Below, piece after piece: positions 3,102-13,109 of a stretch of 46,753 nt of DNA. Source of the DNA: an uncultured Lachnospiraceae bacterium (GTDB taxonomy: Bacteria > Bacillota > Clostridia > Lachnospirales > Lachnospiraceae); assembly GCA_944381505.1 (NCBI GenBank), contig CALWLK010000004.1, positions 1 through 46,753 of the forward strand. The letters run 5' to 3'. The notes beneath the pieces are model-generated. The model did no database searches, was not told the origin of the DNA, and saw only the letters and a list, made by a program, of their open reading frames with translations. Every line of letters starts with the position of its first letter. Within the stretch, counting starts at the first letter, position 1. The position numbers were made by a program, and so were the translations under genes.

Positions 3102-4379
3102 ATGTACTCAGAGCTTATAGCTGCTCTGAACGGCATGTTCTACTCAGGACTTTTGGTGGAGCCTGAGAGAGATAAAGTCTTTGTATTTCAGAGCAGAGAT
3201 TGGAAAGAGATGGAGGGAAGAGAGACCTCTTGGACGGATTATCTGGCGCGCTATGCGGCCATATTTTCCGAGGAGGACAGGAGGGGCATAGAACAAAAAC
3301 TCTCCTGCATATCACTCAAAGAAGCGGCAGAGCGGGGAACGAAACCCTATATCTTAAATTATCCCTATAAAATCCACGGCAAGCAGGATCAGGTCAGTAT
3401 GTTTGTCATGCCGAAGAAGAACACGGCGGGAGAGGCGAAGGCCTACATATTTGTCAGACATTCAAACGAGGACCTCATGAGGCGAAGGATCATTGACCTC
3501 TATGTATATGACAACTTTGATTTTTTCATATACCTTGATGCAAAGACAAACAGCTATGAAATGTTCAGCGGAAACAAAGAGGGCGCTTCCGCCTTGCCGA
3601 AGGTCTGCAAAGACTACAGTTCATTGGTGACCGAGTACACGATGGATTACGTGGTTCCTGAGGACAGGGAGATGGTCATACGGGAGATGCAGACGGAAAG
3701 AGTCATAGAGCAGCTGGACAGACATGGAGTCCACAGCTTCTATTTCGGAATAATGGATGAGGACCATAATTATTTGAGGAAGCAGCTGAGCTACAGATAC
3801 TATGACCGTGAAGCGGGACGCATACTGATGACCCGCACCGATGTCACGGGAATATATCTCGAGGAGAGAGCAAGACAGAGGGAACTCAGGAAAGCAAGGC
3901 TTGGAGCCGAGACGGACACTCTCACGGGACTCTGCAATTACGGAGGCACAAAGCGGCGCATCACGGAAATGCTTGAGGGAAACGGAGAGGGAGCAGCTCT
4001 TTTGTTTTTGGACCTCGACAATTTCAAGGCCGTAAACGACAGGTTCGGACACCTTGTGGGAGACGAGCTCCTCAAAAAGACGGCGAAGGTGCTCAAGATG
4101 CAGACCAGGGAGAGCGACGTACAGGGAAGAGTAGGCGGAGACGAGTTCGTCCTGTATTTGGCGGACATAAAGGACAGGGCTCAGGCGGAGCTGTGTGCAC
4201 AACGTATCTGCGAGGCCGTAAGCCGTATAGCGCTTCCCGAAAAGGGAGTGCCCACCATCACCTGCAGCATAGGAATAGCCATGGCGCCTTATGAGGGAAA
4301 GAATTACGACACTCTGGTAAAGGCGGCAGACAGGCGGGCCTATGAGGCCAAGGCTCGGGGGAAGAACAGGTATATGTAA
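3102..4379 (+). CDS. Diguanylate cyclase (GGDEF domain protein)
   Basis: A 425-residue protein. Residues 1 to about 250 form an N-terminal sensory region with no membrane segment (PAS-like in character, not firmly identified). The GGDEF domain spans about 262-425. It has the intact active-site motif GGDEF at 345-349 and an intact inhibitory I-site RESD exactly five residues before it, so it should make c-di-GMP from two GTP with product feedback. The ATG at 3102 has AAGGA directly against it, which is poor spacing, so the start is uncertain. It is the first gene ahead of the polysaccharide locus, which suggests it tunes polysaccharide production. Catalytic prediction is strong, the regulatory link is inference. 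Confidence 0.88.
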   Translation: MYSELIAALNGMFYSGLLVEPERDKVFVFQSRDWKEMEGRETSWTDYLARYAAIFSEEDRRGIEQKLSCISLKEAAERGTKPYILNYPYKIHGKQDQVSMFVMPKKNTAGEAKAYIFVRHSNEDLMRRRIIDLYVYDNFDFFIYLDAKTNSYEMFSGNKEGASALPKVCKDYSSLVTEYTMDYVVPEDREMVIREMQTERVIEQLDRHGVHSFYFGIMDEDHNYLRKQLSYRYYDREAGRILMTRTDVTGIYLEERARQRELRKARLGAETDTLTGLCNYGGTKRRITEMLEGNGEGAALLFLDLDNFKAVNDRFGHLVGDELLKKTAKVLKMQTRESDVQGRVGGDEFVLYLADIKDRAQAELCAQRICEAVSRIALPEKGVPTITCSIGIAMAPYEGKNYDTLVKAADRRAYEAKARGKNRYM

Positions 4380-4451: not shown

Positions 4452-5144
4452 ATGAAAAACAAAAACTATTATATAAATCCCGAAGAGGACGACAAAAGAA
4501 CTAATGAGAGATTAGAAAGGCTTCTGAGCAGGTCCTTTGCCAGATATTGGAAGAGGAAAAGAGTATTTGACATTTGTATGGCATCAATACTGCTTATATG
4601 TACCTCACCCGTAATGCTTTTGGTGGCTCTGGCTATCAAACTTGAGGACATGAAAAGTCCGGTGGTATATATGCAGAAGCGTATAGGCCGTCACGGGAAG
4701 CCCTTTGACCTTTATAAGTTCCGAACCATGGTCATGAATGCCGATGAACTGAAGGCGCAGCTGATGGATCGGAATGAAATGGACGGACCGGTCTTCAAAA
4801 TGAAGGACGACCCGCGCATCACGCACATGGGAAGATTCTTAAGAAGGACAAGCCTGGATGAACTGCCCCAGTTTTACAATGTGCTTAAGGGGGACATGAG
4901 CGTAGTGGGACCGAGGCCCCCGCTTCCGGAGGAGGTGGAGCAGTATGATGATTATCAGAAGCTTAGGCTTTTGGTCACTCCCGGAATTACGTGTATTTGG
5001 CAGACCCAACCTAACCGAAACAGCATAGCTTTTGATGACTGGGTGGATATGGATCTGGATTATATAGAACGGCGCACTATGTGCTTTGATCTCAAATTGA
5101 TCTTAAAGACACCTTTTGTCATGATAAAGAGGGACGGACGATAA
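4452..5144 (+). CDS. Polyprenyl-phosphate sugar-1-phosphate transferase (priming glycosyltransferase)
   Basis: A 230-residue monotopic phosphoglycosyl transferase of the bacterial sugar transferase family. It moves sugar-1-phosphate from a nucleotide sugar to undecaprenyl phosphate, the first step of repeat-unit assembly. One membrane-inserted helix is at about 39-62, followed by KFRTM (89-93), the family dyad Asp136-Glu137 in SLDELPQ, and the VVGPRP motif at 151-156. It lacks the extra N-terminal membrane domain of WbaP/WcaJ and is the short catalytic-core form. The sugar cannot be told from the sequence. No strong promoter is visible in the 72-base gap before it. A Wzx, a Wzy and Wzz-like genes downstream fit a Wzy-dependent pathway. 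Confidence 0.9.
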   Translation: MKNKNYYINPEEDDKRTNERLERLLSRSFARYWKRKRVFDICMASILLICTSPVMLLVALAIKLEDMKSPVVYMQKRIGRHGKPFDLYKFRTMVMNADELKAQLMDRNEMDGPVFKMKDDPRITHMGRFLRRTSLDELPQFYNVLKGDMSVVGPRPPLPEEVEQYDDYQKLRLLVTPGITCIWQTQPNRNSIAFDDWVDMDLDYIERRTMCFDLKLILKTPFVMIKRDGR

Positions 5145-5218
5145 GATGTCTTTCAGATAGAGCTGTTTTGAATATGAAGTGTTGTTTGATTTCCATGCAG
5201 TGACAGTTGGAGGATAAG

Positions 5219-6040
5219 ATGGGAAGATTCGGATCATCATTTATCGGAGGATATAAAAAGGCTGAGGTAGATGAGTATATAGAGGTACTCATGGATCAGC
5301 TTGAACAGCTGAAGACGCGGGTGGACGGCTTGAAAACTCCCGACGTCAGTGATATTCAGTCTCTAAACAGTGAGTCTGACGCCCTTAAGGCGGACAAAGA
5401 GAGGTTGGAGAGCGAAAACGCCAAGCTGAGTTCAGAGGTCAAGGAGCTTCGCTCAAAGCTTGCGGAATATGAAGGCAGCTATGAGAGTCTGTCGGGAGTC
5501 ATGTCGATAGCCAGGAAAGAGGCTGACAAGCTGGTAAGCAGGGCCAAGGAGGACGCTTCCGGCATAGTTGACAAAGCCAAAAATGAAGCTGATAAGCTGG
5601 TGGGTGATGCCCACAGGTCGGCAGAGAAGATCACAACTGACGCGAAGGTGGAGGCTCTCTACAGCAAGAAAAAGGCGGAGGAGGATATAAACCGGCAGTT
5701 CGAGCAGAAAGAACAGGGCATAGCCATGGCTAAAACCAGAGTGCTCGAATATGTCGAGGCATTTAATAATGCCCATGCTCAGATCATGGAGCTGCAAAAA
5801 CAGCTTACGCTGCTTGCAGGCAGGCTTCCTATTTATAAGGAGGATATATTCTCCACAGAGCCGATGCAGATAGTTGAAAAGCCCTCTGAGGAGCTGATAA
5901 AGCCTTCCATAGAGGATAAACAGGGCGCGGTTGCGGAAGAGATACATACAGAGGAAAACACTGACGGAGCAGGTATAATCATCAGCGATGATGAGCCTGA
6001 CAAAAGTATGACTGATGCTGAAAAGAAAAGAATCCGGTAA
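5219..6040 (+). CDS. DivIVA-like coiled-coil protein
   Basis: A 273-residue protein whose first 35 residues resemble the DivIVA membrane-binding domain (FIGGYKKAEVDEYI at 8-21), followed by long heptad-rich coiled coil to about residue 200 and an acidic tail. DivIVA-family proteins sit at curved membrane, such as poles and septa, and recruit partners. The ATG at 5219 is preferred over a TTG four codons upstream because GGAGGA lies at the correct distance. It sits inside the polysaccharide operon and overlaps the next gene by 26 bases. A role in placing polysaccharide assembly in the cell is inference. The family call rests on the N-terminal motif and coiled coil. Confidence 0.75.
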   Translation: MGRFGSSFIGGYKKAEVDEYIEVLMDQLEQLKTRVDGLKTPDVSDIQSLNSESDALKADKERLESENAKLSSEVKELRSKLAEYEGSYESLSGVMSIARKEADKLVSRAKEDASGIVDKAKNEADKLVGDAHRSAEKITTDAKVEALYSKKKAEEDINRQFEQKEQGIAMAKTRVLEYVEAFNNAHAQIMELQKQLTLLAGRLPIYKEDIFSTEPMQIVEKPSEELIKPSIEDKQGAVAEEIHTEENTDGAGIIISDDEPDKSMTDAEKKRIR

Positions 6041-7061
6041 GAACGGAAGAACCTGCAAAAGAATAAGCCTTGTGGCAATCATATGTCTTGGAATACCAAC
6101 TTTGATTTATGGAATCGCAATGAAAGGCCGTAGCCATCCGGTTCCGCTTTTTCAGGTATGTTGGGAGGACACTCCCAACAGCGACCGCTACTATGCGGTG
6201 AATATAGAGGATCAGTTATACGATATAAAAAAAGCGGTGGTGACAGCGCCAAAGGATACCGAAGGCAGAGCGGTATTTTACGACAGCGAAGGAGAGAGCA
6301 TTAAAGAATACTCTATTGTTTCAGGGGAGAATACTTTGGAGCTGACGCCTGACACAGAGATAGTGGTAATAGAGGCGGGATCATCAGATACGCTGAAACT
6401 TGAGGGGGAGCTCTCGGAGAAGGGACAAAAGGAAATGGAAAATGCACATCCTGATAACCCTCTCTATGCAAAAAGCCTTTCTGTTTTGGGAGACAGCCTC
6501 AGCGCATATACCGAGTATATTCCTGATGGGTATCTTACCTTTTATCCGTCTGAGGATGTGCAGAGGGTTTCGGACATGTGGTGGTACAGACTTGCCAAGA
6601 GTATGGGGATGTATCTGTGCAAGATCAACGCTTCTGCAGGTTCGGGAGTTACGGGATTGGAGATCAGTGAGTCAGGGGATGCGGGAGAAAGGGGCAAAGA
6701 ACTGCACCTGCCGGGATATACGCCGGATGTTATTTTTGTATGGTTGGGCGGAAATGATGCTTTGGCGGGTGTGAGTATGGAAAAGATAATGGAGGAATAC
6801 CACAACATTGTGCAGGATATCCTCCTTGCATACTCTGATTCCGATATATATTTATGTACATATATTGACTTGAGCCCTGAGTTGACACAGCTCAATAACG
6901 GGATAAGGGAGACTGCCGATGAATATGGAGTGCAACTGATGGATGTAGCCGATTGCGGCATAACGGCTGAGAACTACAGAGACTATATTCCGGACGGCGC
7001 GCACCCTAATAAAAGAGGATTTCGCTTGATCGCCGCGTGGATGGAATCGAAATTAAAATGA
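6015..7061 (+). CDS. Membrane-anchored SGNH/GDSL-family hydrolase
   Basis: A 348-residue protein with one N-terminal membrane anchor (about 17-37), a beta-rich region to about 150, and an SGNH hydrolase domain. Visible catalytic elements are the GDSL block with Ser161, the GGND block with Asn247, and the closing DGAHP block with Asp327 and His330, so the catalytic set is complete. Such enzymes act as esterases or acyltransferases, often removing or moving acetyl groups on surface glycans. The active domain should face outside. The start lies inside the preceding gene, implying translational coupling. An O-acyl esterase role on the locus polysaccharide fits the acyltransferases nearby but is inferred. 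Confidence 0.85.
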   Translation: MLKRKESGKNGRTCKRISLVAIICLGIPTLIYGIAMKGRSHPVPLFQVCWEDTPNSDRYYAVNIEDQLYDIKKAVVTAPKDTEGRAVFYDSEGESIKEYSIVSGENTLELTPDTEIVVIEAGSSDTLKLEGELSEKGQKEMENAHPDNPLYAKSLSVLGDSLSAYTEYIPDGYLTFYPSEDVQRVSDMWWYRLAKSMGMYLCKINASAGSGVTGLEISESGDAGERGKELHLPGYTPDVIFVWLGGNDALAGVSMEKIMEEYHNIVQDILLAYSDSDIYLCTYIDLSPELTQLNNGIRETADEYGVQLMDVADCGITAENYRDYIPDGAHPNKRGFRLIAAWMESKLK

Positions 7062-7104
7062 TGCAGTAGAGACGGAAAGAGCCGAAGAGACGGAGGCTAA
7101 CGGA

Positions 7105-8349
7105 ATGCAAAGTAAAAAAGCACAAAATACAGCGGGAAAATTGATTTGGGAAATAGCGTGCAGGCGCTTGGAAAAGACAGTGCCTACGGAAGTAATGACA
7201 GAAATTCATGAGATCAGGGTCCTGGGCTATGACGGCTCGGAGATCTCCTTGTCTTGCCCTGCCGGAAAGGGGCAGGAAGGATATGAGGAAAAGTACAGGG
7301 ATATCCTTACAGAAAACCTGTGCTGGGCTGCCGGACACGATATCACAGTCAATTTTCAGTATAAGAAGAAGGGGCTTCCCTCCGGAAAAACGACTGAGAA
7401 AATTTCCGGAGAAAAGCATGTGCTCGGAAAGGCCGTTTTGATGCTTGTGATCGCCGCAGCCATATTCTGCGCTTTGATCTTGGGAGTCAACATAAATTCA
7501 AACAAAACGTTTCGAGAGACATTTTACGAAACGGCCTCGGGAAAAGTCGCAGACAATCTCAGGATCATTCATCTGTCGGATCTGCATAATTCTACTTATG
7601 GAGCGGATAACTCCGAATTGATCCGGCGCATAGAGCTGTTAGCCCCGGACATTATAGTTATGACGGGAGATATGACTGAAAAAAGCGACGGCACAGCAGA
7701 TGTGACTGTTGAGCTTTGCAAAAGCTTGGTCAATACAGCGCCTGTCTATTATATCTACGGCAATAACGAAGAATCGGAGTTTATGAATTTTGAGGCCATG
7801 GAGCACGAGGAGATAGAGTCACTCTTCTTGGAGAAGGACAGGGAACTCAGGCTTGAAAGCTTCAAGGACTTGGACGGCGGCTTCAGAGAGCTTTTGGAGG
7901 CAGCCGGAGTAAATGTTTTGTGGAACGAGAAAGCGACGGTGGAGGTAAAGGGAGTATCAGTCGATATTTTCGGGATCCTCACAGGAGACACCGACAATTT
8001 CTGGAATTACATAGGGGAAGATTATGAAAGCTTTTTGACTGAGGATCAGGACCATTTCAAGCTGCTCTTGTCCCATGAGCCATACATTTTTGAGACCTTC
8101 GGACAGGGAGAATGGGCGGACCTCATTCTGTGCGGTCAGACCCATGGAGGAGTGGTAAGGCTCCCCAAGCTTGGAGGGCTGTATGAGCACAAGAACGGAT
8201 TTTTCCCTGAATTAAAGGGTGCCTATGTTTACGGGCAATATGACTTGGGCGGACCGTCTCTTATTGTCAGCTCAGGGCTTACAAACCGCAAAGCCGTAAG
8301 GATCAACAATCAACCGGAGTTAGTCGTGGTCGATGTAGCCCGGTATTAG
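7105..8349 (+). CDS. Membrane metallophosphoesterase with DnaA-domain-I-like N-terminus
   Basis: A 414-residue protein in three parts. Residues about 12-88 align without gaps to the N-terminal domain I of DnaA: an IWEIACRRLEK helix, a GSEISLSCPA strand, then EEKYRDIL and a final DITVNFQY strand. A single membrane helix follows at about 112-131. The rest is a calcineurin-like phosphoesterase with LSDLHN, TGDM, GNNE, LLSHEP and GQTHGG blocks. Two positions depart from the common motifs: GNNE instead of GNHE, and GQTH instead of GHTH, the latter changing a usual metal ligand. Positive residues before the helix put the N-domain inside and the enzyme domain outside. Substrate unknown. The gene lies between an SGNH hydrolase and Wzz-like genes. 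Confidence 0.8.
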   Translation: MQSKKAQNTAGKLIWEIACRRLEKTVPTEVMTEIHEIRVLGYDGSEISLSCPAGKGQEGYEEKYRDILTENLCWAAGHDITVNFQYKKKGLPSGKTTEKISGEKHVLGKAVLMLVIAAAIFCALILGVNINSNKTFRETFYETASGKVADNLRIIHLSDLHNSTYGADNSELIRRIELLAPDIIVMTGDMTEKSDGTADVTVELCKSLVNTAPVYYIYGNNEESEFMNFEAMEHEEIESLFLEKDRELRLESFKDLDGGFRELLEAAGVNVLWNEKATVEVKGVSVDIFGILTGDTDNFWNYIGEDYESFLTEDQDHFKLLLSHEPYIFETFGQGEWADLILCGQTHGGVVRLPKLGGLYEHKNGFFPELKGAYVYGQYDLGGPSLIVSSGLTNRKAVRINNQPELVVVDVARY

Positions 8350-8365: not shown

Positions 8366-9739
8366 ATGTCGACAATGAAGATAATTGGCATTTTTGGGTT
8401 GATTGCTGTAGTGCCGGGGCTTTTAGGCTTGCTGAGATTATATTTTAAATTCGGTGATTCGGCATGGAACACTTTAAAGCGGGGCTTCCGATTGGGGCTT
8501 TCGTTTAAGCTTGGAACAGCCGTGCTTGCCATAGCTTGTGCAGGGCTGTTCGGACTGTGCTATCAGGCTGCCTCGGGAGGAGAAGCCGTAGCGATCATTT
8601 CGCTGAATTATCCTGATGCGTCCAAGGGGCAGAATGCCAACGGAACCAGATTTAACATGTCGGAGATCCTGTGTCAAGAGGTTCTGGAGAGAGCTATCAG
8701 AAAAGGAGCGTTTGAAAATGTGACGGTGGAAGATCTTTCTGATTGTCTCTCCGTAACACCTACGGTGCAGGGAGATTCCACTTCAGAGGACGCCTACCAT
8801 ATCTCTACGGAGTACGCGGTTATCTACAGGGAAAACGAAAAGACAGCACATCTTGATGCGAAAAATGTTGTCGGGGTAGTGGCGAATGCATACAAGGAAT
8901 TTTATATAGACAAGTATACAGATAATTTTGTGGCCTTGGATATCCAAATTGATCCGGAAGCTGATTTCAGCGGTTTGGACTATTTGGATATTGCAACCTA
9001 TCTGGAAAATCAGACCAATGTGATCTCGAATTATATGTATGCGCTCGGAGACGAGAATCCCGGCTTCATCTCTTCAGCAGGCGAGTCCTTCTATGAGCTG
9101 GCGGCACAGATAAGAGATATACGGTCCGTTCAGATCAATGACAATCTGAAGGCTTATCTTCTTCAGAACGGGATATCAAAAGACAGAGACAAATATATCG
9201 GACGGCTGACATATAACAACACTCTCTCAGGCTTTGAAAGAGAGAAGGATACCGCTTCTTATGATATCAGAAATGAAGCGATAGAAATGTATTCCGAAGA
9301 AATGACCCGTGTGGTCCTGGTTCCTACTTGGGACGAGGCCGGAGAATACTATATGGGCAGAACCAAGGTGGGCATAGATACCCTCTCCGTGGAAGCGGAG
9401 GCCTATAGTCAGCAGGCAGCGGCCACACAAAAGGAGATAGAGACAAATGACGAGACCATTCGCGCAATGGAGCAGAATGGGACGGATGGAATTGATGAAA
9501 AAGCTGAGATGATGATAGCGGATATCAGCAGCTCCATTGAACAGATCGCTGATAAGGCGCAAAAGGCCGGCCGGGAATATTCTGAAGCAAAGCTAAATTC
9601 TCTTATGTCAGGTACGGTTATCGAAGATTCTTTCCTGAGAGAGGTCATTCCGGTGGCTGTTTTTGTAATTCTGTTCTATATGGCGCTGAATGTATTTGTC
9701 GGCTCTTTCCGGAAAAAGACATCAGACAGGATGAGATGA
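8366..9739 (+). CDS. Wzz-like polysaccharide co-polymerase / chain-length regulator (first copy)
   Basis: A 457-residue membrane protein with hydrophobic segments at about 5-23 and 46-67, a large extracytoplasmic region rich in helix, and a closing membrane segment at about 430-450. This hairpin topology and the early strand AVAIISLNYPDAS followed by NGTRFNMSEIL are characteristic of Wzz/chain-length determinant proteins. Such proteins set the number of repeat units added by a Wzy polymerase. There is no kinase or tyrosine-rich tail. It is followed 46 bases later by a second, diverged member of the family, so the two may form one mixed complex. Family call is moderately strong; similarity was judged by eye. 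Confidence 0.7.
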   Translation: MSTMKIIGIFGLIAVVPGLLGLLRLYFKFGDSAWNTLKRGFRLGLSFKLGTAVLAIACAGLFGLCYQAASGGEAVAIISLNYPDASKGQNANGTRFNMSEILCQEVLERAIRKGAFENVTVEDLSDCLSVTPTVQGDSTSEDAYHISTEYAVIYRENEKTAHLDAKNVVGVVANAYKEFYIDKYTDNFVALDIQIDPEADFSGLDYLDIATYLENQTNVISNYMYALGDENPGFISSAGESFYELAAQIRDIRSVQINDNLKAYLLQNGISKDRDKYIGRLTYNNTLSGFEREKDTASYDIRNEAIEMYSEEMTRVVLVPTWDEAGEYYMGRTKVGIDTLSVEAEAYSQQAAATQKEIETNDETIRAMEQNGTDGIDEKAEMMIADISSSIEQIADKAQKAGREYSEAKLNSLMSGTVIEDSFLREVIPVAVFVILFYMALNVFVGSFRKKTSDRMR

Positions 9740-9785
9740 TCTCATATGACCGGGATAAAGGCCGGTGGAAAGGATAAGTTATAGT

Positions 9786-11786
9786 ATGAAGGAATTTCAG
9801 ATTTCTCGTTATATCAAAAAGTGGCTTCCTCTGATAATCGTGGCATGTATTGTAATGACAGCTGCAGTATATCTGTTTTTGTCATTCTCCCAGTCCTATG
9901 TCGCCTCTGCGGTAATTCGCTTTAATAATGAGAATGCGGTGGAAGGAAAAAATCCGGACGGCAGCGATTTGGATGTAAATAGTATTAAAGCTTCATCTAT
10001 CATGTCTCAGGTGATCAATAATCTTGAGCTTGATCAAAATCTGTATTCGGTGGACAGCCTGATCTCACGCATTCAGATCACCGAGGTGATCGACGAGGAC
10101 GAACAGGAGCGTAAGGACGCGCTGCTTGAATTGGGCGAGGAATATACATATGAGCCCACCACATTTATCGTGTCCTTTGAGGCCACCAACAGCGAGGGCC
10201 GAGAATTTGCCGGAAAAGTGCTGGACGAGCTTTTGGACGTATATTTTTCAGACTACAGCGAGCTCTATATAAACAGCGCTTCAACTGTCAACTCCATAAG
10301 CGAGATCTACGACTCAAATTATGATTACATAGAAATGGTTGAGCTCATTAATGACAATATCGGCGACACGGTCAACACTCTTTCGAGCCGTATTTCAAAT
10401 AACAGCACCTTCCGCTCGGCGACCACAGGCTACAGCTTTACAGATTTGGCTACGGAATTTAATTACATCAAGTCCGTAAAGATTTCCGAGCTTTTTTCTC
10501 AGATCTTCAAGTATCAGATAACAAAAGATAAGGACTTGCTGATATCAAAATATAATGAGAGGATCAAGGAAAACGGGCTTGCAGGCTCGGAAGCGCAGAA
10601 GAAGATCGACGATGTGCTGGAGCTTATGGATCTCTACGTTGAAAAAATGCGCGAGTCCGGAAATACCAACATTACCTCGGAATATATTTTGGATGAAGTA
10701 CACAACAGGGATCTTACGGACATCTATGGTGAACTCGTAGGAAACGGAGCGCAGACTGTTACCTATGACAAATTGATTTACAGCTGGAGGGACAATAAAG
10801 ACACAGATACATACGCCGTGATCGGTTCCGCGTACTGCAGATATGTACTTAATGAGTTTAATCGCTGTACAGGGGCGGACAGCCCGGCACCGATCGTATC
10901 GGAAGTCTCAGCTGCATCCGTGGACGGAACCGGGACGGACACTGCGGCTCAGACCGAGGCGGACGCTGCCGGATCATTTTTGAACCGGGAGATCGAAGAA
11001 AACACTTCTCCCTGCGCCGACTCTGATCTTACTTGCGCGGCTTTGAATACGCCGGGATATGACGGCATTGTAGAAGAGGTGCAGAATGAGATCCGCAGCC
11101 TGCTGGCGGAGCTGGATGAATTATACCGCATAGTTGAAGCGACAAACACTGAATATAATGAATATTTAGGCGCTGCCAACATTTCCACACTGTCTACCTC
11201 CTCCGTGAACGGAACTATAAATGTGGCTCTGTATACAGGGCTGGCGGCAGTATTTTTCCTGGTGATCTGCTGCTGCGGAGCTGTTCTGCTGGGACGCCTC
11301 AATGATATCATCCGATATGTATTCTACATGGATCATTTTGTGGAGATGAATAACAGGATAGCCTTTGACAATTATATCAAGACCTCGGGCAGGAAGCTTT
11401 TGAGCAATGATACCGCTTGTATCATGATTGCGATCAAAAACCAGAGAATGATCAACAATCAGTTTGGCAGGGACAGCGGAGACAAGCTGATCAAATTCTT
11501 TGCAGACAACATCAAAGAAACATTTGGGGAGGAAGGAAGCTATATTGCATATAACGGCAATGCTCAGTTCTTTGTGATCGAAAAAAGCATGCAGATGCCT
11601 CAGGCACAAAAGCTTTTGGAGTATTTCAAGCTTATTGTAGATAAAAGGGAGTTGCTCAGGGAAGCGGAAATCGAATATGAGATGGGACTTGCACATGCCG
11701 GACAGGAAGGCATACACAGGATCCGCAGTCTTGTCTCAAAGGCTGTAGCCAACCGAAAGAATTATGTTTCAAAGCCCGGGGATTAA
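9786..11786 (+). CDS. Wzz-like co-polymerase fused to a degenerate GGDEF domain (second copy)
   Basis: A 666-residue protein. A first membrane helix is at 13-34, then a long extracytoplasmic helical domain opening with AVIRFNNENA and NPDGSDLDVNSIKASSIMS, as in Wzz proteins. A second membrane helix lies near 478-502. The cytoplasmic C-terminus (about 515-666) has the order and spacing of a GGDEF domain, with NRIAFDNYI near its start. The signature is GNAQF at 591-595 instead of GGDEF, and no RxxD I-site precedes it, so it cannot be a cyclase. ATG 9786 is preferred to a GTG at 9765 because AAAGGAT lies 10 bases before it. Likely a chain-length regulator that senses a cytoplasmic signal; the ligand is inference. 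Confidence 0.75.
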   Translation: MKEFQISRYIKKWLPLIIVACIVMTAAVYLFLSFSQSYVASAVIRFNNENAVEGKNPDGSDLDVNSIKASSIMSQVINNLELDQNLYSVDSLISRIQITEVIDEDEQERKDALLELGEEYTYEPTTFIVSFEATNSEGREFAGKVLDELLDVYFSDYSELYINSASTVNSISEIYDSNYDYIEMVELINDNIGDTVNTLSSRISNNSTFRSATTGYSFTDLATEFNYIKSVKISELFSQIFKYQITKDKDLLISKYNERIKENGLAGSEAQKKIDDVLELMDLYVEKMRESGNTNITSEYILDEVHNRDLTDIYGELVGNGAQTVTYDKLIYSWRDNKDTDTYAVIGSAYCRYVLNEFNRCTGADSPAPIVSEVSAASVDGTGTDTAAQTEADAAGSFLNREIEENTSPCADSDLTCAALNTPGYDGIVEEVQNEIRSLLAELDELYRIVEATNTEYNEYLGAANISTLSTSSVNGTINVALYTGLAAVFFLVICCCGAVLLGRLNDIIRYVFYMDHFVEMNNRIAFDNYIKTSGRKLLSNDTACIMIAIKNQRMINNQFGRDSGDKLIKFFADNIKETFGEEGSYIAYNGNAQFFVIEKSMQMPQAQKLLEYFKLIVDKRELLREAEIEYEMGLAHAGQEGIHRIRSLVSKAVANRKNYVSKPGD

Positions 11787-11828: not shown

Positions 11829-13109
11829 GTGTTTGAAAAACAGGTAAGTAAAAATATAGCCGCAGTATACTTCATTGTACTTGCTGTATTAAGTTACTAT
11901 TTTGTCGATAAAACACTCACGGCTACTATAGGTATCGCTTTTCGCCAAATTTTTGTTGTACTTTTTATCTTATCAGGCTTTGTGTGCTGGCTAATCAAAC
12001 CGGATATCGCGAGGACCTCAATTTTATTGAGGTCCTCATTGGTACTTTGCGTTCCGCTTGCCGTAATGGTCTTAATATCCCTTTTCCTGTGGGTCTTTCA
12101 ACAAACGGAGATAGAGATCATCGCTAATGCCTTTTATACGTATTTTCTGTATATGAACGAAATACTGGCTGTTTTGGTGGCGGTTGTGTTTCTGCTTTTA
12201 TTTGGCGAAAGAGGGATATGGTACAACCTTTTTGCTATCATAATCGCCAACCTGCTTTTGATAGCAACTATCATGGCGGAGCATGGTGTCGGAGCATATC
12301 TTAATGAGCTGTGGATATTGATAAAGACCTTTGCGGGAGAGACCGGAGATATTATTAGGGAGGCGGAGATACATGAGCTGGCCTTTTGCCTCGGCTTGTA
12401 CGAACTCTATATGATCTTGAATTTCCGTAAAAAGCTATGGTTTATTTTGCTCTTTATCGCAGCAACCTTCTGCTTTGTCTCCGCCTTTAAGAGGATCGCC
12501 ATGGTCGCGATACTGGTGGCGAGTATTTTGGGACTGATATTAAAATTCCCGGCAAGGAGGAAAGGCGCGGCTACGCTTTCCAAGGTGATCATGATCATGG
12601 TGGCCGCCCTCGGCATATTGGCATATGCCTATATATTTGCGGTAAAGATGGGAGTCTTCCAACAGCTGGAGGAGCAGGGCGTCAACGTCACAGGAAGAGC
12701 GGATATATATGAGCTGTTTGATAAATACTATACTTTTTCCCCGGCGTATATAGGATACGGGATGGGCTATGTGTATTATCTTCTCAATTCAGAGATATCG
12801 CTGTATACCTCGGCGATCCACAATGATTTCCTGGGAATGTATATTGATCTGGGCTTTTGGGGATTTTTGATCTGGTTCATTTCAGGCTTTGCCCTGAGAG
12901 TATGGTATTTCGGGCGAAACGGAAAAACGGAGAATAAAGCTGTGGTATTTGCCATCATGGTCTACATGTTTATCGTCTTCAGCACGGATAATACCCTTAC
13001 CTTCCAGATGGTATATTCCGTCACCGCGCTCATCATTATGGGCCAGGGATTTGACAAAAAAACCCGGGAAGAGGAAAAACGATTATTCGGCAGTGCTCAA
13101 AGGACATAA
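11829..13109 (+). CDS. Wzy-like polysaccharide polymerase (O-antigen polymerase/ligase family)
   Basis: A 426-residue integral membrane protein with about ten hydrophobic helices and a larger outside loop (around residues 275-325, containing YIGYGMGYVYYLL and the HNDFLGMYIDLG block). That pattern is typical of Wzy/O-antigen-ligase family proteins, where a conserved His-Asn region lies near the end of the large loop. It should join lipid-linked repeat units on the outer face of the membrane. It starts at GTG 11829, with AAGGAGAG eight bases upstream. Its place directly after the two chain-length regulators supports the assignment. Wzy sequences diverge quickly, so topology and context carry much of the call. 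Confidence 0.8.
   Translation: MFEKQVSKNIAAVYFIVLAVLSYYFVDKTLTATIGIAFRQIFVVLFILSGFVCWLIKPDIARTSILLRSSLVLCVPLAVMVLISLFLWVFQQTEIEIIANAFYTYFLYMNEILAVLVAVVFLLLFGERGIWYNLFAIIIANLLLIATIMAEHGVGAYLNELWILIKTFAGETGDIIREAEIHELAFCLGLYELYMILNFRKKLWFILLFIAATFCFVSAFKRIAMVAILVASILGLILKFPARRKGAATLSKVIMIMVAALGILAYAYIFAVKMGVFQQLEEQGVNVTGRADIYELFDKYYTFSPAYIGYGMGYVYYLLNSEISLYTSAIHNDFLGMYIDLGFWGFLIWFISGFALRVWYFGRNGKTENKAVVFAIMVYMFIVFSTDNTLTFQMVYSVTALIIMGQGFDKKTREEEKRLFGSAQRT

Follow-up and report, generated by a model that had tools for sequence, protein, structure and literature searches.

The gene at positions 7105..8349 of the window (the whole 46,753-nucleotide stretch of DNA analyzed here) encodes a 414-residue protein in which a head, very probably homologous to domain I of the replication initiator DnaA and with the same fold, is followed by a membrane helix and a calcineurin-like phosphoesterase. 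The cluster that carries this fusion is a conserved Wzy-type sugar-coat operon of gut Clostridia, in which copolymerase-like neighbors nearly always accompany it. As an overall explanation, for and against which we consider the chances evenly divided, the protein may be a membrane-anchored accessory subunit of the Wzy-type exopolysaccharide assembly complex of Clostridia.

The open reading frame lies on the forward strand, as do all window features located below; it starts with the ATG at 7105, downstream of a GGAGG at 7092-7096. The DnaA domain-I-like head occupies residues 4-86 (7114..7362), as defined by an AlphaFold2 model, Foldseek, and a comparison of the family profile with DnaA in the PDB. 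Its modeled elements are helix 4-25, helix 28-35, strand 38-42, strand 46-51, helix 57-76 and strand 81-86. A linker with a basic sequence (residues 87-104; 7363..7416), modeled at pLDDT <50 over 88-107, leads into a membrane helix (residues 105-130; 7417..7494) that reaches its peak hydropathy (mean 3.01) from residue 110 and is helical in the model. The phosphoesterase domain spans residues 134-414 (7504..8346) and is nearest to YaeI. Pfam family PF00149 matched residues 152-347 with 43.7 bits (E 5.5e-11), above its cut-off of 21.5, and the NCBIfam YaeI model scored 70.6 bits, short of its equivalog cut-off of 188. The order of head, membrane helix and phosphoesterase proposed in the first-pass annotation is thereby confirmed. 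A model of the whole protein, built from five rows, was of low quality (mean pLDDT 64.1) and served only to place the helix and to order the head elements.

A full-protein scan of the GTDB genome collection yielded 415 relatives, and 32 of the best 80 combine the head, the helix and the phosphoesterase, so the survey suggested for related genomes did recover the fusion. These 32 proteins and the window protein supplied the 33 heads analyzed below. PF00149 was detected after the head in all 33, and the 25 Pfam families listed for them included no replication initiator domain in that place. The window fusion itself is not a DnaA initiator, being a chain without an AAA+ or DNA-binding domain. A PDB search with a profile of all 33 full-length fused proteins returned no chain at E<=0.001.

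The case for homology with DnaA is made by pooled profiles and fold, not by single sequences. A search of the window head against the DnaA_N family (PF11638) had been proposed as a check, and Pfam returned no match for it. Scored against an HMM of 35 DnaA N-termini, the window head reached 8.8 bits, a value equaled by 1 of 2000 shuffled sequences; against an HMM of 16 DnaAs from its own genus it reached 3.1 bits (21/2000 shuffles as good), and it scored 32.8 bits (0/2000) against a profile built from the remaining 32 heads. Taken on its own sequence, the window head is therefore only marginally DnaA-like. Among relatives in the same genus, the G019 head scored 21.7 bits against DnaA_N (E 1.6e-4, profile positions 3-61 of 65), under the curated cut-off of 24.6, and the G003 head had no Pfam match. 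Six of the 33 single heads matched DnaA_N at E<=0.1 (best 1.1e-4), as did four of the 33 whole fused proteins at E<=1 (best 0.0013), and the full DnaA model of NCBIfam touched L089 in that same region at E 0.036. Profile-profile comparison of five heads with 15 DnaAs by hhalign gave no significant similarity; larger sampling with other programs was supportive. The host assembly, G000 (86.6% complete), contained no DnaA_N match at E<=10, so a direct comparison with the DnaA of the host was impossible.

Unrelated Pfam families scored like DnaA_N. Three heads each matched DUF4447 (best 2.5e-4) and RRM_PARP14_2 (best 5.7e-4) at E<=0.1, and we took both for chance. We also rejected DUF3420 (PF11900) as an assignment for the window head; its match (E 7.6e-4) was below the cut-off of that family, was found in 1 of 33 heads and covered 23 residues.

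As a family, the heads were convincingly DnaA-like. Against the HMM of 35 DnaA N-termini, 27 of 33 outscored all 300 of their shuffles; the exceptions were the window head and L073 (1 shuffle each as good), L098 and L109 (2 each), L097 (7) and L111 (83). When the profile of 33 heads was searched against 177,635 PDB sequences, the best matches were B. subtilis DnaA (9.7e-5 and 1.1e-4) and T. maritima DnaA (0.014), ahead of the next sequence at 0.23, and the best DnaA alignment ran through 78 columns. At E<=0.001 in 392 genomes of the order, the same profile recovered the window and 24 DnaA-sized frames, 446-495 residues long; 19 were fetched, and every one carried the DnaA Walker pattern. Searched among 2584 ORFs that included 16 DnaAs, the head profile ranked four DnaAs, at 5.4e-6 to 5.6e-5, directly behind the family itself; four further ones scored 0.026 to 0.095, ahead of the first decoy at 0.43, and the remaining eight scored worse or were unlisted. 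In the reverse direction, an HMM of DnaA placed two fusion proteins next after DnaA itself (9.2e-5 and 0.0021), with the others at >=0.05 and the first decoy at 1.1. The similarity thus exceeds chance in both directions for the family, and marginally so for the window head alone. The first-pass claim of a column-by-column, gap-free alignment to DnaA stands for the family profile, through all 78 columns, and is inexact for the window head, which is one residue short in helix 2 in the 33-row alignment. Its proposed DnaA_N search has a similarly divided outcome: the window head is unmatched, and support comes from the sub-cut-off G019 match and from the PDB DnaAs found by the pooled profile.

The predicted fold points the same way. 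Modeled with the 33-row alignment, the window head had a mean pLDDT of 86.4 and a pTM of 0.75, with the order a1-a2-b1-b2-a3-b3 that defines the KH-like fold. Foldseek ranked B. subtilis DnaA domain I first and second in the PDB (4tps_D and 4tps_B, E 3.2e-4 and 7.3e-4, TM 0.73-0.82), and these were its only matches at E<=0.001. The structure comparison that had been called for thus gave the anticipated answer, the predicted window head being closest to B. subtilis DnaA domain I. Ranks 3, 4, 7 and 10 were DciA (of V. cholerae and D. radiodurans) and chain E of 5fkv, an E. coli polymerase complex, which we take to be tau; OsmC chains ranked 5 and 6. Domain I of the DnaA proteins from H. pylori (0.037) and E. 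coli (0.042) was also among the hits. DciA and DnaX domain V are described as having the KH fold in common with DnaA domain I (PMC9912922).

Could the resemblance to DnaA be chance, or a generic KH-like fold without common descent? The window head, unmatched by DnaA_N and scoring 8.8 and 3.1 bits against the two DnaA HMMs, would fit such an origin, as would the L111 score, the unrelated Pfam families that match single heads equally well, and the KH-like DciA next in the fold search. Against it, DnaA was the only protein picked from the PDB by the family profile at E<0.1, every DnaA-sized frame fetched from the genomes was a DnaA, and 27 of 33 heads beat all of their shuffles. We regard an origin without common descent as highly improbable, and return to homology with DnaA domain I.

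The orientation of the protein in the membrane can be judged from its flanking charges. Over the 20 residues on each side of the helix, the 33 proteins together have 236 Lys or Arg before it and 98 after it. By the positive-inside rule, this excess places the head inside and the phosphoesterase outside, an arrangement that we consider likely from the sequences. The earlier proposal of the same topology is accordingly supported by the family, and much less by the window protein, whose helix is flanked by 4 such residues before and 3 after.

We traced the fusion at several taxonomic depths. Within the window's own genus, protein searches recovered the head from three of 25 genomes (the window, G003 and G019). 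A three-row profile found two clear fusions among 397 genomes of the family, the window and G264, and the genus of G264 contributed one more, G446, or 2 of 4 genomes there. In a survey of 391 genomes of the class, 79 had a match to the head profile at E<=0.001, of which 13 were strong (E<1e-17). Twelve of the strong matches are fusions: the window, nine complete genes in L172-L180, G873, and G836, which is cut by a contig end. The weaker matches are frames of 417-498 residues, the size of DnaA, with one exception of 204 residues; the frame in G865 has 417.

Two short proteins came to light in these searches. The thirteenth strong match, in G840, is a free-standing head of 97 residues (L182, 5303-5596, minus strand; HMM E 1.2e-24) that is flanked by genes for an SGNH hydrolase and an HD-domain protein; the 12 kb fetched contained no further recognized operon gene. 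L184 3367-3957, in genome G1027, encodes a 196-residue protein that matches the head profile at 1.6e-4 over 52 positions and has no Pfam match.

A quick tree of 84 phosphoesterase domains gathered all 33 sampled fused proteins and nine unfused ones into one group of 42 (SH-aLRT 96). Head presence requires 7 changes on this tree, at least 4 of them forced by starred branches, and none of 500 shuffles needed as few. A six-frame search of the nine unfused clade loci revealed no hidden head at E<0.5. The tree is most simply explained by one gain of the head followed by several losses. The branches of L108, L109, L110 and L111 are long, and their placement is uncertain. Two unfused clade members, L095 and L108, come from contigs labeled Alphaproteobacteria and Abditibacteriota, though they fall amid Clostridia in the tree; these contigs are possibly mis-binned.

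The fusion gene is embedded in a recurrent set of neighbors, which substantiates its reported location in a polysaccharide operon. Pfam searches of the window gave the order PF02397 transferase, DivIVA-like protein, SGNH hydrolase, fusion, two copolymerase-like proteins, Wzy polymerase and glycosyltransferases. Homologs were counted over the 32 other fusion loci, some of which are shortened by contig ends. The priming sugar transferase (4452..5144; PF02397, E 2.5e-68) recurs in 27 of 32. The DivIVA-like coiled-coil protein (5207..6040; PF05103, 54.9 bits) recurs in 6, and the SGNH/GDSL hydrolase with an N-terminal hydrophobic segment (6015..7061; PF13472, E 5.1e-16) in 2. Downstream, the first copolymerase-like membrane protein (8366..9739), Wzz-like by topology only and without a Pfam match at 0.01, is present in all 32, and a copolymerase-like gene is the next recognized gene in 28. 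The second (9765..11786), which carries a GGDEF-like domain at its C-terminus (PF00990, 45.7 bits at residues 521-660), is present in 30, and the Wzy/O-antigen-ligase-type polymerase (11829..13109; PF04932, 43.5 bits) in 28. A relative of the L110 glycosyltransferase, detected by BLAST alone, occurs in 28. No tyrosine kinase was found among the 20 window proteins searched with Pfam.

In the nine unfused clade loci, the copolymerase-like, GGDEF-like, Wzy and glycosyltransferase genes are each present in 8, the transferase in 7 and the DivIVA-like gene in none. None of the copolymerase-like, GGDEF-like and Wzy genes therefore depends on the head, and since the head was lost repeatedly without a consistent loss of any recognized operon gene, it is not obligatory. 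The DivIVA-like gene is also missing from 26 of the 32 fused loci; being present in only six of them, its product was dropped as a general partner.

The GGDEF-like domain of the 9765..11786 protein has the signature NGNAQF, so this protein is probably not a cyclase. A survey of the signature in 70 relatives, in which 57 fit neither of the patterns tried, was too narrow. Another GGDEF-domain protein, which scores 130.2 bits and whose GGDEF signature is of the ordinary kind, is encoded just upstream of the operon, at 3102-4379.

DnaA domain I meets its partners through a small number of residues, and we compared these positions across the heads. At the alpha-2 position of B. subtilis W27, 28 of 33 heads have Trp and four have Phe or Tyr, with a gap in the window head; at the alpha-3 position of F49, two are aromatic and 18 have Glu. 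The alpha-1 position of E. coli Trp6, which we equate with B. subtilis W8, is Trp in nine heads, the window included. In B. subtilis, T26A, W27A and F49A are each lethal and each lose DnaD, according to PMC10201431, and PMC4285326 reports loss of SirA with W27A and F49A, but not with T26A. PMC5448010 describes dimerization of E. coli domain I through an alpha-1 patch with Trp6, and an H. pylori domain I that lacks the alpha-3 Phe yet has a partner, HobA. Loss of the alpha-3 Phe hot spot from most heads makes partners other than DnaD and SirA likely, and the conservation of residues makes it probable that most members still use the alpha-2 face, to bind such other partners.

Instead, the head might bind DnaA or its partners (such as DnaD, helicase or DiaA-like proteins) at the membrane and so couple sugar-coat production to the cell cycle. 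Its homology with DnaA domain I invites this idea, and the Trp retained in 28 heads is the residue that DnaD binding (PMC10201431) and SirA binding (PMC4285326) need. The binding of HobA by a DnaA without the Phe (PMC5448010) makes loss of this residue compatible with such partners. Nevertheless, in B. subtilis the single substitution F49A is enough to abolish DnaD binding (PMC10201431), and the heads mostly have Glu at this position; they are also distant in sequence from the DnaA of the host family, and were lost several times. We consider a tie to the cell cycle very unlikely.

A second alternative is that the head merely dimerizes the protein or, as a stable cytosolic anchor, aids its insertion, in which case any small soluble domain would do. 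Repeated head loss within the clade, with the operon largely unchanged, is in keeping with so generic a function, and the nine heads with the alpha-1 Trp, the window among them, have the residue of the E. coli dimerization patch (PMC5448010). The other 24 heads lack this Trp, however, whereas 28 retain the one on alpha-2 with which DnaA engages its partners, a pattern indicative of a binding face. Dimerization or anchoring alone seems to us rather unlikely. The preferred reading, a docking or dimerizing head that keeps an outside phosphoesterase near the polysaccharide assembly proteins, stands in our judgment about midway between acceptance and rejection.

Calcineurin-like phosphoesterases bind their metals through the motifs DxH, GD, GNxE, H and GHxH, and GNHE is the usual form of motif III. 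Alignment of the 84 phosphoesterases located these motifs in the window protein: motif I is DLH (residues 159-161; 7579..7587), motif II is GD (188-189; 7666..7671), motif III is GNNE (219-222; 7759..7770), motif IV is His324 (8074..8076) and motif V is GQTH (344-347; 8134..8145), with Gln replacing the first His of GHTH. This Gln, found in the window copy only among the 33 fused members, deprives it of the full metal-motif set. All seven metal-ligand positions are retained in 29 of 33. Motif III reads GNNE in 27 fused members, GNHE in two and otherwise in four. We dropped GNNE as a mark of the fused form, as it is shared by 24 of 51 unfused relatives; all 24 have complete ligands, so GNNE is not by itself the sign of a dead enzyme.

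A second homolog was found in three of the best 80 loci only, L109, L110 and L111. Each has, in the same operon, a degenerate fused phosphoesterase that has lost several ligand positions and a solo copy with GNHE and complete motifs.

If the outside domain were a pseudoenzyme, the protein would be purely a scaffold or sensor. Replacement of the motif III His in 31 of 33 fused members, the additional GQTH of the window copy, and the loss of several ligand positions in L109, L110 and L111 beside an intact solo paralog all suggest this; the seven ligands retained in 29 of 33, and the GNNE of unfused relatives with complete ligands, argue against it. A pseudoenzyme is possible, in our view, though doubtful.

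Under the accessory-subunit explanation, a YaeI-like membrane phosphoesterase of the operon would have captured a relative of DnaA domain I once, and several lineages would later have lost it. The cytoplasmic head could act as a docking or dimerization module through its alpha-2 face, and in some members its alpha-1 face, and so would hold the outside phosphoesterase beside the membrane proteins of the operon. Our best guess for the partner would be the priming transferase or else some cytosolic portion of the two copolymerase-like proteins, for example the GGDEF-like domain; DnaD- or SirA-type partners would be improbable with the alpha-3 Phe gone from most members. The outside domain may act on, or sense, a phosphate-containing intermediate such as an undecaprenyl-diphosphate-linked chain. 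An adaptor role for the head is plausible; our confidence in naming any specific partner is far lower than in the docking function itself. In the window copy, the gap at the alpha-2 Trp, the GQTH of motif V and the charge bias of 4 to 3 all count against the overall explanation. The original suggestion of an inside adaptor is partly supported, by the homology, the predicted fold, the charge-based orientation and the recurrent operon; it is weakened at the known B. subtilis partner site, where two of 33 heads are aromatic at Phe49.

More speculatively, the docking head of a replication initiator might have been co-opted as the cytoplasmic end of a sugar-coat phosphoesterase, coupling polymer export to a replication-linked or DnaA-like interaction network, with the 97-residue G840 copy as a soluble version of the docking part. 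We think this improbable.

Our searches of an open-access library, from which most subscription articles and every bioRxiv preprint are absent, turned up no account of such an architecture. DnaA domain I is regarded as a component of replication, and its recurrence as a membrane-bound copy tied to an operon suggests a portable docking module. The family makes available 33 natural variants of the head with changed partner faces, and offers a handle on the control of the Wzy-type polysaccharide machine in Clostridia.

Compared with known systems, the heads most resemble DnaA domain I (PF11638; PDB 4TPS, 2WP0, 2E0G), sharing its predicted fold, the order of its elements and the gap-free profile similarity, as well as the alpha-2 Trp in most heads and a Gly at the position of B. 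subtilis G71 in 30 of 33. They differ in being joined to a membrane helix and a phosphoesterase rather than to an AAA+ ATPase and a DNA-binding domain, in having mostly lost the alpha-3 hot spot, and in a G019 score below the Pfam cut-off. DciA and chain E of 5fkv share the KH fold, but match the structure more weakly and were not matched in the PDB sequence search. On the phosphoesterase side, the YaeI-like calcineurin phosphoesterases (NCBIfam PRK11340) have the same domain at full length, aligned over profile positions 45-270 of 271, and the window protein departs from them in its score (70.6 of 188 bits), its GNNE motif III, the GQTH of its own copy and the extra head. LpxG is more distant from the window phosphoesterase than YaeI.
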